This document shows, in pieces, positions 37,196 to 58,541 of a stretch of 64,000 nucleotides of DNA (the stretch's first letter is position 1; the number at the start of each line of letters is the position of its first letter). Under the pieces are notes generated by a model that saw nothing but the letters and a program-made list of their open reading frames with translations, was not told the origin of the DNA and did no database searches. A program made the translations under genes and the position numbers. The DNA is from Humisphaera borealis (GTDB lineage: Bacteria > Planctomycetota > Phycisphaerae > Tepidisphaerales > Tepidisphaeraceae), in assembly GCF_015169395.1 (NCBI RefSeq), contig NZ_CP063458.1:5456001-5520000 (forward strand). The letters are read 5' to 3'.

Positions 37196-37223
37196 TTGAC
37201 GCGCCGGCATTTGCCTGTATCTT
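37196..37223 (+). promoter_or_regulatory. Sigma70-like promoter of the cobalamin riboswitch operon
   Basis: TTGACG (37196-37201) and TATCTT (37218-37223) are separated by 16 bases. A start about 37230 would put the riboswitch at the very 5' end of the transcript. Confidence 0.65.
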
Positions 37224-37227
37224 CCGA

Positions 37228-37505
37228 TTCGCAAGCGAAAGGTGTCCGGACACGGCCGAGGAATCTGCCGCCGTTCGGCTGAATAGGGAAGTGTGGTGAC
37301 TCGGTGTAGGCCGCTTGAGGGCCGGAATGCCGGGGATTCCACCGCGGACGCGCCGCCGTGAAGGGTGGGCGAATACCGGAAGCAGGGTCGTGAAGATCCC
37401 TCGCCGGTCTCGCCAAGCGTTCGGCCAACGAAGTCACTGCCGACGGGAAAAACCCGTGGCGGGAAGACGGCCGACGTGATCACCCTGAGCCGGAAGACCT
37501 GCCTG
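37228..37505 (+). ncRNA. Cobalamin (adenosylcobalamin-type) riboswitch
   Basis: All core elements of the B12 riboswitch occur in order: AAAGGTGTCC (37238-37247) at the 5' side, GAATAGGGAAGTGTGGTGAC (37281-37300), CGGACGCGCCGCCGTGAAGG (37345-37364), AAGTCACTGCCGACGGG (37431-37447), GGCGGGAAGACGGCC (37458-37472) and the B12 box AGCCGGAAGACCTGCC (37488-37503). It is followed 80 bases later by an intrinsic terminator, so control is probably by transcription attenuation: ligand bound means off. The regulated operon encodes two PEP-CTERM proteins and a pseudopilin. Confidence 0.93.
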
Positions 37506-37585
37506 TCGTTTGGTGTTCGTCCTCGCGACCCAAAGGACTCAGCACCGGGCAGGCCCCTGTTCCATCGACCCCGGACAGACACGCC

Positions 37586-54607: not shown

Positions 54608-56380
54608 ATGTCCCTCAACAACGACCTCTCCGAGCTGTTCAAGAACTTCAGCCGGCTGATGGAGCTCAAAGGCGAGAGCGTCTTCAAGGTGATCGCGTTC
54701 CAGAAAGTCAGTCGAATTCTCAACGACATGACTTTCGACATCCGCCAGGCGTTCGAGAAGGGCGAACTTGATTCCATCGAGGGCATCGGCGAATCCAGCC
54801 GTCGTATCATCTCCGAGTTCATCCGCACCGGACGAAGCACCGAGTTCGATGAAGTCGCGACGACCGTCCCGGCGGGGCTGCTTCCGATGCTCGATATCCA
54901 GGGCCTGGGGCCCAAGACCATCGCGCTGTTCTGGAAGGAAAAGGGCATCACCAGTGTGGACGCACTGGTCAAGGCGATCGACGACGGGTCGCTCAAGGGC
55001 CTCAAGGGGGTCGGCGATAAGAAGTTGCTTGGCATCAAGGAAGCGCTCGAACGGATGAAAAACGCCTCCGGTCGCCTGCGCATCGATGAGGCGATGTCGA
55101 TCGCGACCGACTTCGTCGAGCGGCTTCGGAAACTGCCCGAGGTCGCTTATGTCGAATACGCCGGCAGCCTGCGCCGGTCCAGGGAAACGATCGGCGATGT
55201 TGACCTGATCTGCTCCGGCAAGTCGCCCGACGACGGCGAAGCAATCGCGAAGGTGTTCACCCAGTTTCCCGAAGTTTCCAAGATCCTCGGGCAGGGCACG
55301 ACCAAGGCCAGCATCCTGACAGCCCGGGGTTTTCAGATCGACATCCGTATTGTGCCGCAGGAAAACTTTGGCGCGGCGCTGCTCTATTTCACGGGGTCCA
55401 AGGAGCACAACGTGCGGCTTCGCGGCCGGGCAATCGACCAGGGCATGACCCTCAACGAGTGGGGCCTCTACAAGCAGACGGATTACGACAAGGCGCAGAA
55501 AAAGACCGGCGAAGCCCCCGACGCAAAACCAGTCGCGAGCAAGACCGAGTCCGACGTTTACAGGAAGCTCGGTCTTCAGTTCATCGCGCCCGAGATGCGC
55601 GAAGATCGCGGCGAGATCGACGCCGCCGAGACTGACACGCTTCCGACGCTGATCGAGCTGTCTGATGTCCGCGGCGACCTGCACTGCCACACCACCGCGT
55701 CCGACGGCCGGCACACGATCGAGCAGATGGTCGAGGCGGCGATCGAGATGGGCTACGCGTTCTTGGCGATCACGGATCATTCCAAGAGCCAGGTGCAGGC
55801 GCACGGCCTGAGCGTTGAACGTCTGCTGGCGCACGTCAAGGCGATCCACGACGTGGGCCGCAAGTACAAGGAGATCACCCTCTTTGCCGGTTGCGAAGTG
55901 GATATTCTCGCCGACGGTCGGCTCGATTACGAGGACGAAGTATTGGCTGAGCTCGATTTCATCGTCGCCAGCCCGCACCACGCGCTGACCCAGAACGAAG
56001 CCAAGGCGACCGACCGTATCGTTCGGGCGATCGAGCACAAGTATGTGAACGTGATCGGCCATCCGACGGGCCGGCGGGTGGAGGTTCGTGCGCCGCTGCC
56101 GCTGCAGTTCGACCGCGTCTTCAAGGCGGCGGCCGCCGCCGGCACGGCACTTGAGATCAATGCCAACGCCGATCGGCTCGATCTCAATGACGTCAATGCC
56201 CGGGCGGCGGCCCAGGCCGGCGTTAAGATCTCCATCAATACCGACAGCCACGACATCGCTTCGTTCCCCGACATGCGATACGGCATTGGCGTCGCCCGTC
56301 GGGCGTGGCTGACGGCCGGCGACGTTATCAACTGCATGGACGTCAAGGCGCTCAAAAAGTTCATCGCCGCCAAGCGATGA
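54608..56380 (+). CDS. polX: DNA polymerase X family protein with PHP domain
   Basis: A 590-residue bacterial PolX. The N-terminal 8-kDa/HhH region includes IEGIGESSRRIISEFI and IQGLGPKTIALFW. The polymerase nucleotidyltransferase site has SLRRSRETIGDVDLI and later FQIDIRIV, both with paired acidic residues. The C-terminal PHP domain begins DVRGDLHCHTTASDGRHT and ends with NTDSHDI; it supplies 3'-5' exonuclease/phosphoesterase activity. Role: gap filling in base excision repair. A very long antisense ORF covers this region but is a GC artefact. Confidence 0.95.
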   Translation: MSLNNDLSELFKNFSRLMELKGESVFKVIAFQKVSRILNDMTFDIRQAFEKGELDSIEGIGESSRRIISEFIRTGRSTEFDEVATTVPAGLLPMLDIQGLGPKTIALFWKEKGITSVDALVKAIDDGSLKGLKGVGDKKLLGIKEALERMKNASGRLRIDEAMSIATDFVERLRKLPEVAYVEYAGSLRRSRETIGDVDLICSGKSPDDGEAIAKVFTQFPEVSKILGQGTTKASILTARGFQIDIRIVPQENFGAALLYFTGSKEHNVRLRGRAIDQGMTLNEWGLYKQTDYDKAQKKTGEAPDAKPVASKTESDVYRKLGLQFIAPEMREDRGEIDAAETDTLPTLIELSDVRGDLHCHTTASDGRHTIEQMVEAAIEMGYAFLAITDHSKSQVQAHGLSVERLLAHVKAIHDVGRKYKEITLFAGCEVDILADGRLDYEDEVLAELDFIVASPHHALTQNEAKATDRIVRAIEHKYVNVIGHPTGRRVEVRAPLPLQFDRVFKAAAAAGTALEINANADRLDLNDVNARAAAQAGVKISINTDSHDIASFPDMRYGIGVARRAWLTAGDVINCMDVKALKKFIAAKR

Positions 56381-56573
56381 CGGCCGCTGAATGGTCGAAT
56401 CCACATTGCGGCCGGGCTGCGGTATAAGGAACATCCAAACCGCCATGGGGCGATCGGGCTTCGGAAAACTGCGGGATGTCCGCCGCAACTTTTCACCTCC
56501 CCGATCGTCCATTGTTTCACGGGGGCCGAGGGGTTCGGTCCTGACGACAGCGAAATTGGGCAGGAACAGAACC

Positions 56574-58541
56574 ATGAAAGTCAGCATTCGATATCGATTG
56601 ATGCTCGCGGCTGGTGTCGCACTGGCATGCATCGGGACGTCTTCTACCGCCCGGGCCGATTCGCTCGTGCTGCGCGACGGGCGCGAGATCACCGGCGAGA
56701 TCGAGCGCATCGACGGCGGCTACCGAGTCAAGACCGCGACCGGCGTGGTCCAGGTGGCGCGTTCGGACGTGGCCGAGTGGAAGCGGTCCGCCGCGCCCGG
56801 TGTGACCACGCCCGGCACCACCACGCCGCCGTCTACACCCGCCGCCACGCCCGCTCCGGCTATTCCAAAGCCGGCCACCCCAGCGGGTACCGCTCCGTCA
56901 CCGGCCGTCAGCGGGGCACCCGTGCCCAGGCCCGGACCGGCGACGAATCCCGCCGACCGCAACCGGCGAACCGTGGAAGTCCTCGTTTCGCAGGGCGTTG
57001 ACGCCCTGGCGCTGGGCGACGTCAAGGCCGCCCGCGACCTGCTGGTTGACGCGATCCAGCTCGATCCGCGCCATCGCCTGGCGCTTGAATCCGTCGGCTA
57101 CTGCTACCTGAAGCTCGACGATATTCCCCGCGCCACCCGGTCGATGGAAGCTGCCGTCGCGGGTTCGACCCCGCAGTCGCGAGCGCTGACCATGAACCTG
57201 GCTTACGCGCTGCTGCGCGGCCGCAACCCGATGCGCGGCGCCAAGATGATCAAGGACTATCTCGCCGCCAACAGCACCGTCATGGACGAAGAGGCCCTCA
57301 ACGCCTTTGCGATCTGTCTCGGCCAGAGCAGCGACGAATCGCGAGTAAGCCGATTCTGGACCGAATGTGTCACGTTCTACGACCAGTACAACGCCAAGCT
57401 CGAAGCGACCAAACCCGGTCAGAAGCGCTGGGGCGTCGATTGGGTCAGCGCATCCGAACGGGCTTCCACCGACAGCAAGAACAAGGCTATCCAGTCGCGG
57501 ATGGACACCAAGTGGCGCGAATTGCAGACCGCGATCGGCGACTTCAACAAGGCCAAGAAGGCGTACGCCGACGCCTATTCCGCCAACCGCTTCCGCAAGA
57601 ACTCCGGCCCCAGCCCGGCCTCGCTCGAGCCGCAGGTCAAATCGACCAAGGATCGGGCGGACAGGCTGCAGTCCGAGTACAACGAGCTATCGGCGACGCT
57701 CATCCGCCCGACGTTGCCGAAGCTGTTCGATCCTGTGCAGCTCGACCCGGCCGGGCTGACGCTGGCCAGCGCAGGCACCGGTACCGGTGTGTCGTCCGGG
57801 GTCGGCTCGATGTCGCCGGGGCTGAAGCCCGAGGCCGCGCCCGTCACACCGCCGGTGGTCGTACAACCACAGCCACAACCGCAGCCACAGCCTCAACCGT
57901 CGCAGCCCAAGCCGGTCGATCCACCGGTTGCCGTCGCGCCTCAACCCGCGGTGCCGCAGCCCGTCACCCCTACGCCGACCCCGCAACCCGAGACCCGCAA
58001 GCGTGCCATCTTCACGTCGGCGTGCGGATTCGCGGTCGGGCCGGATCTGATCGTCACGTCGGCCGCCAGCGTCGAGGGCACAACGCGCGTCACCGTGCAG
58101 CCGGTCGACGCGAACCCCATGGACGCCGAGGTCGTCCGCACCGACCCGGCAACCGGGCTCGCCCTCCTTCGGCTCAAGGGCAGGACGATGGCCTATCTGC
58201 CGGTGGGGGACAACTTCGCGGGCGGCGCGGTGCAGTGCGTCAGTTTCCCGACCGTCTCGATCTTCGATCCCACGTGCGAGGTCATCGGCGGAAGTGCCGT
58301 CCCGCCGAAGGACGACTGGTCCATCCGCCTGAACAAGCACCCACGGCTTGCCGGCGCACCGATTTTGGCCGGCGGTAAGGTCATCGGCGTGGAACTCGCC
58401 AGCCGCGACAACGACGCGACAACCCTGCCCTCCGTCAACCTCGGCAAGCTCAAAGCGTTCATCGGTGCGCTGCCCCCGTCACCCACCGTCGCTGATCCGA
58501 CGATCGCCGTCGTGCTCGTCAGCGGCGTGCGGGAAAAGTAG
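56574..58541 (+). CDS. Exported protein with TPR-like region and degenerate trypsin-like domain
   Basis: A 655-residue exported protein with a signal peptide (LMLAAGVALACIGTSSTARA). A small beta module (SLVLRDGREITGEIERIDGG), a Pro/Thr-rich linker, a TPR-like helical region (ALALGDVKAARDLLVDAIQL) and a Gln/Pro linker follow. The C-terminal ~170 residues have the HtrA-type trypsin fold (ACGFAVGPDLIVTSAASVEG; DPATGLALLRLKG). The catalytic His is replaced by Ala (about 498) and the nucleophile Ser by Ala (about 593, LAGAP for NSGGP). It is therefore a pseudoprotease, probably a binding module. Confidence 0.82.
   Translation: MKVSIRYRLMLAAGVALACIGTSSTARADSLVLRDGREITGEIERIDGGYRVKTATGVVQVARSDVAEWKRSAAPGVTTPGTTTPPSTPAATPAPAIPKPATPAGTAPSPAVSGAPVPRPGPATNPADRNRRTVEVLVSQGVDALALGDVKAARDLLVDAIQLDPRHRLALESVGYCYLKLDDIPRATRSMEAAVAGSTPQSRALTMNLAYALLRGRNPMRGAKMIKDYLAANSTVMDEEALNAFAICLGQSSDESRVSRFWTECVTFYDQYNAKLEATKPGQKRWGVDWVSASERASTDSKNKAIQSRMDTKWRELQTAIGDFNKAKKAYADAYSANRFRKNSGPSPASLEPQVKSTKDRADRLQSEYNELSATLIRPTLPKLFDPVQLDPAGLTLASAGTGTGVSSGVGSMSPGLKPEAAPVTPPVVVQPQPQPQPQPQPSQPKPVDPPVAVAPQPAVPQPVTPTPTPQPETRKRAIFTSACGFAVGPDLIVTSAASVEGTTRVTVQPVDANPMDAEVVRTDPATGLALLRLKGRTMAYLPVGDNFAGGAVQCVSFPTVSIFDPTCEVIGGSAVPPKDDWSIRLNKHPRLAGAPILAGGKVIGVELASRDNDATTLPSVNLGKLKAFIGALPPSPTVADPTIAVVLVSGVREK

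Follow-up and report, generated by a model that had tools for sequence, protein, structure and literature searches.

The window, by which we mean the whole 64,000-nucleotide stretch of DNA analysed here, encodes on its forward (+) strand a 655-residue protein (positions 56574–58541, stop codon included) whose C-terminal domain is predicted to adopt the trypsin-like fold of the HtrA proteases, with all three residues of the catalytic triad replaced. We consider it rather probable that this protein is an exported HtrA-fold pseudoprotease in which catalysis was lost, most simply once, and the domain was reused for non-catalytic binding next to the TPR helices, the whole acting as an envelope adaptor or sensor. 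Sequence alignment, the predicted fold, a survey of homologues and an estimate of selection all support the original prediction of an exported HtrA-type pseudoprotease fused to TPR-like helices.

Domain layout and predicted fold

The enclosing open reading frame spans 56391–58541 (+), and an ATG at 56574 yields the 655-residue protein, the frame being conserved in orthologues. Reading the sequence by eye, we placed a putative Sec-type signal peptide at residues 1–28 (56574–56657), with cleavage between ARA and DS, and the protein appears on this basis to be exported. It is followed by a small N-terminal module read from the sequence (residues 30–69, SLVLRDGREITGEI...DVAEW; 56661–56780), which has no Pfam match at E ≤ 1 and resembles stretches in the relatives L004, L015, L018, L020, L021, L022 and L038. 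A Pro/Ala-rich linker leads from there to a TPR-like helical module (residues 131–285; 56964–57428), in which Pfam TPR families match residues 135–195 at 24–25 bits, under their own cut-offs (24.4 bits versus 27 for TPR_2); assignment to this class also draws on a module profile and on the orthologues L012 and L014, which pass the TPR cut-offs. The region closes with the motif RWGVDW (residues 285–290; 57426–57443), whose W290 is invariant in alignment A1. Beyond it lie a charged, probably helical region read from the sequence and covered by the module profile (residues 291–392; 57444–57749), a Pro/Gln-rich linker (PQPQPQ..., residues 393–476; 57750–58001) and the pseudo-trypsin domain (residues 478–655; 58005–58538), which forms the C-terminal end of the protein. 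No PDZ domain was matched by Pfam at E ≤ 1 anywhere in the 655 residues. Elsewhere in the window, a cobalamin riboswitch was found at 37223–37520 (53 bits).

Several lines of evidence agree on a double-barrel trypsin-like fold related to HtrA. Pfam Trypsin_2 matches residues 485–559 at 29.3 bits (cut-off 27.6), and the solved chains closest by sequence profile are MarP and HhoA. AlphaFold2 modelled the domain from an 11-sequence alignment with a mean pLDDT of 91.2 and a pTM of 0.89; the prediction from a single sequence was useless (pLDDT 37). Among the 50 matches listed by VIA-align, the model superposes on DegS, DegP, DegQ, HtrA1 and plant Deg with Z scores of 16.6–18.0 over 141–154 residues, the top match (DegS/DegP/HtrA1-type) having Z 18.0 over 148 residues with an rmsd of 2.1, while the best Foldseek matches are HtrA1/HTRA1 structures (E 8.7e-8). 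Judged from the model, the fold of residues 478–655 is of the trypsin/HtrA type.

Loss of the catalytic residues

Alignment to intact homologues places A498 (58065–58067) at the catalytic His position, G528 (58155–58157) at the Asp position and A593 (58350–58352) at the Ser position. The His segment reads VTSAASV where the intact relative L016 has ITNHHVV (ITNxHVV generally), the Asp segment DPATGLALL in place of DPENDIALL, and the Ser segment HPRLAGAP in place of QPGNSGGP (xPGNSGGP generally). By the position logic described for MamO (PMC4794232), R591 (58344–58346) stands where chymotrypsin numbering has the oxyanion-hole glycine (Gly193), a substitution expected to prevent a normal oxyanion hole. 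Replacement of both His and Ser by Ala had been predicted from the window sequence and is borne out for each residue; the tally was incomplete, with the Asp and Gly193 gone as well.

Distribution and descent of the family

Homologues were sought in 61 genomes, comprising the window's own and relatives, and then with a domain profile in 298 genomes of the class. The class search returned 11 loci at E ≤ 6.9e-58, followed by a gap to 3.0e-16. These 11 pseudoprotease loci fall in 8 of the 26 genomes of the window's bacterial family (likewise 8/26 in the order sample), with two loci each in genomes G000, G011 and G016. Across a phylum sample of 392 genomes, matches this strong occurred in the window's own genome only; five other genomes exceeded the threshold, all with intact proteases. 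The triad was intact in 22/22 next-best loci of the class search and in 5/5 of the phylum search, counts that cover these 22 and 5 loci, with weaker within-family matches inspected in part.

Catalytic His and Asp are absent from all 11 loci and Ser from ten, L010 being the sole one with Ser at the nucleophile site. Taking the loci in the order window, L009, L010, L011, L022, L012, L026, L014, L013, L015 and L002, the His site is occupied by A, A, T, A, A, E, A, S, E, R and R, and the Ser site by A, A, S, A, I, P, P, P, P, P and V. At the Asp site there is G in eight loci, K in one and a gap in two, and position 193 holds R in nine and A in two. Whether the substitutions are fixed across homologues, a check proposed with the original prediction, therefore has a split answer: the loss is fixed and the replacement letters vary.

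In a tree of 65 rows, the 11 pseudoproteases lie on one side of a branch with support of 100/99 and presence in 100% of 200 bootstrap trees, which is consistent with one loss; this tree kept the triad columns, has a long pseudoprotease stem (2.15 changes per column) and does not resolve the sister group. The simplest account is that catalysis was lost a single time, in an ancestor belonging to the window's bacterial family. A divergent 218-codon frame, L094 (G023:C582), has N in place of His, G in place of Asp and C in place of Ser, and is probably either a separate loss or a far member of the family.

Conservation and genomic context

The old active site is occupied by a motif of its own. In place of NPGNSGGP, the family carries W582...H589-P-R591-L-x-G-A/S-P, which in the window protein reads W582-S-I-R-L-N-K-H-P-R-L-A-G-A-P596 (58317–58361). 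Across the 11 loci, G594 is kept in all, W582, L586, P590 and P596 in ten each, and H589 and R591 in nine each, and H-P-R-L-x-G is the same in all six rows of alignment A3. The fold core is conserved across the 11 loci.

Relative to the nearest orthologue, L009, identity is 94/162 in the pseudo domain, 35/105 in the charged region and 27/62 in the Pro linker. The TPR region is slightly ahead of the pseudo domain in this comparison (99/155), and the main function could therefore sit in the TPR half, although in 7 of 8 orthologues having both parts conservation is higher in the pseudo domain. In the same comparison, NG86 gave for the pseudo domain dN 0.35 and dS 0.95, a rough dN/dS of about 0.37 with dS near saturation. 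The pseudo domain is retained under constraint.

Directly upstream of the gene lies a polX-like gene (54608–56380, +) with Pfam matches to the Pol beta thumb and PHP. The same arrangement is found in 5 of the 8 pseudoprotease genomes (G000, G001, G010, G012 and G022); contigs break off at the sites concerned in G002 and G016, and the two genes are on different contigs in G011. None of 14 pieces of sequence downstream of polX matched the family profiles, these being 11 pieces of up to 5–7 kb, some shortened by contig ends, and three stubs of ≤500 bases. An operon logic with polX, a repair-type polymerase, was considered and set aside; the linkage probably reflects shared descent rather than function. 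No co-occurring gene that would name a pathway was found.

Relatives with intact sites and a candidate circular permutation

In the window's own genome, L004/L070 (a 582-codon frame) is a TPR-HtrA protein of comparable layout that has an intact triad and looks active, and L016 of genome G009 combines an intact triad with the same TPR-RWG module (module profile E 7e-18). That module also occurs apart from any protease domain in L025 and L028, and L018, L020 and L021 are likewise planctomycete TPR proteins with an RWG-type motif module and no protease domain. Genome G022 holds a pseudo domain without the TPR module (L015) and, elsewhere, L025, a separation that may mean the two parts act jointly; L025 is distant, however, and may serve a different function. 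Genome G000 contains a large HtrA-like set, with 19 Trypsin_2 matches in 7.2 Mb. At its locus L186 (G000:C1:6220000-6223300), a 479-codon HtrA-like frame with TKASE at the His site comes after an intact trypsin-like gene, possibly another active/inactive pair in the same genome.

In canonical HtrA, the first strand (PAVVxI) precedes GSGF. The TPR-HtrA proteins, Sel1-like-HtrA proteins (Sel1-like being our reading of the repeats) and some other planctomycete proteins found in this survey have no upstream copy of PAVVxI and carry a like segment (for example, EEIAAKVKPATVCI) at the end of the protein or after the domain, located by a motif scan 64–75 residues after GNSGG. Such a segment follows an active-looking HtrA-type domain, often as the last residues, in L004/L070, L016, L037, L038, L072–L076, L098–L101 and L107.

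We scored these tails with an HtrA strand 1 matrix built from 30 canonical segments. Among intact tails, 12 of 17 were matched by ≤10 of 1,000 shuffles, one of them (L044) in another register, in a group that was picked after the tails were seen, such that the test was not blind. None of five other rows passed, and 2 of 11 pseudoprotease tails did (L026 and L014); the 'upstream' score of L100 arose spuriously from a chance motif hit near the N-terminus, and L097 was left out as too short. With the tail rotated to the front, 5 of 17 intact rows scored above every one of their 20 shuffles; two sets of close relatives account for four of them. Among the pseudoproteases, rotation beat the shuffles in 2 of 11 rows by a margin of ≤0.4 bits, which lends no support.

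In the window protein, the candidate for a relocated strand 1 is a C-terminal beta strand at residues 646–653 (58509–58532), confidently predicted by AlphaFold2 and weak or negative in the sequence tests. VIA-align left the tail of the model unaligned after residue 155–157, and its alignments usually start at DegS residue 75; these features of the model fit a circular permutation without demonstrating one. On sequence evidence, the intact relatives seem to carry the HtrA first strand at the C-terminus, which, if so, would be a natural circular permutation, and permutation of the pseudoproteases is not supported.

Discussion

The fold of the window domain ties it to HtrA, DegS, DegP and HtrA1 (S1C), with Z scores of up to 18.0 and a Foldseek E value of 8.7e-8 to HTRA1, but the protein differs from these in lacking the triad, the Gly193 of GNSGGP and a PDZ domain, and in its N-terminal half. 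A C-terminal PDZ domain is usual, though not universal, in HtrA/S1C proteases. The MarP family (NF033740; PDB 3lt3 and 3k6z) provided the best NCBIfam match, at 31.9 bits versus a cut-off of 250, and the best PDB profile match (E 2.7e-11). MarP has a membrane half, whereas the window protein has a TPR half in its place and has lost the triad. More similar in architecture are the intact TPR-HtrA proteins (L004/L070, L016/L068 and L038/L071), which share the signal-peptide-like start, the TPR helices, the C-terminal HtrA domain and the lack of a PDZ match, L016 sharing the RWG module as well, but which have His, Asp, Ser and GNSGGP intact.

The closest parallel is MamO, a magnetosome pseudoprotease derived from HtrA. 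The authors of its description argue that the side chain at position 193, Glu223 in MamO, disfavours the active conformation (PMC4794232). In both cases an HtrA-derived fold has lost catalysis (judged here from sequence), position 193 is replaced (Glu in MamO, Arg here), a non-catalytic role would be retained and active HtrA-type homologues are present in the same cell. The same account describes MamO as having properly placed catalytic residues with Thr for Ser, a TauE transporter domain and a di-His metal site (PMC4794232), whereas here the whole triad is lost and TPR/RWG helices stand in front; no TauE-like transporter domain was matched by Pfam at E ≤ 1 in the window protein. HtrA-descended pseudoproteases are thus known; the present family is set apart by its complete triad loss, by Arg in place of Gly193, by fusion to TPR-RWG helices and by its new motif. 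Searches of open-licence literature, judged by titles and the openings of abstracts, brought up no description of this family or of a permuted HtrA.

Our preferred explanation is that, within the window's bacterial family, an ancestral HtrA-type domain lost its His, Asp and Ser together with the oxyanion Gly and was then maintained by selection in a non-catalytic role. Its former cleft, now shaped by W582, H589 and R591, would most likely bind a peptide or protein ligand without cleaving it, while the TPR/RWG module would dock a partner, such that the whole protein would serve as an adaptor or sensor in the envelope. By analogy with the argument made for Glu223 in MamO, R591 at position 193 would hold the active-site loop inactive. 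The peptide-sensing or scaffold function suggested in the original prediction is likewise inferred. A broader version, which we put forward tentatively, is that there is a permuted planctomycete HtrA lineage whose TPR-RWG-fused branch turned the dead cleft into a conserved ligand pocket (W582/H589/R591), making an undescribed class of envelope receptors or adaptors.

Alternatively, the protein might regulate an active HtrA-type protease of its own cell, activating or inhibiting it without any catalysis of its own, a role for which MamO is a precedent as regulator of the active protease MamE (PMC4794232). Potential targets exist, namely L004/L070 of like layout in the window's own genome and other strong Trypsin_2 matches in all four of the pseudoprotease genomes searched (of eight), but the TPR-HtrA paralogue shows no association with the family (14 of all 26 genomes carry it, as do 4 of the 8 with a pseudoprotease), and the compared neighbourhoods have no active-protease gene in common; we regard this role as rather unlikely. 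It is more doubtful still that the protease fold is a passive leftover that merely drifts while the TPR half does the work. The triad letters do drift freely (A, T, E, S and R at the His site; A, S, I, P and V at the Ser site), and L025 and L028 show that the TPR-RWG module can stand without a protease domain, yet the fold core and the new motif are conserved, dN is well below dS, and L015 retains the pseudo domain without the TPR module.

An enzyme with an active site rebuilt from other residues, such as C555 or H589, is very improbable. These residues are kept in 8 and 9 of the 11 loci, respectively, but C555 (model residue 78) is part of a predicted strand and Gly193 is replaced. The conserved columns of the 11-row domain alignment contain no Ser nucleophile and no acid that would pair with H589 or C555, and among them we found no valid triad elsewhere in the domain, the arrangement that the original prediction had named as incompatible with it. 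We give even less credence to a metal-binding pseudoprotease like MamO. The fold and the kind of loss are the same (PMC4794232), but H589 is the sole His in residues 478–655 and MamO's di-His site is therefore absent.

MamO is the bacterial HtrA-fold pseudoprotease found in our literature search, and a second family that has lost both the triad and residue 193 would mean that the same route was taken again. The intact-triad relatives of like layout offer a natural comparison of active and inactive forms within one bacterial family, and the conserved motif at the old active site allows a direct and testable guess about the ligand of an inactive HtrA cleft.
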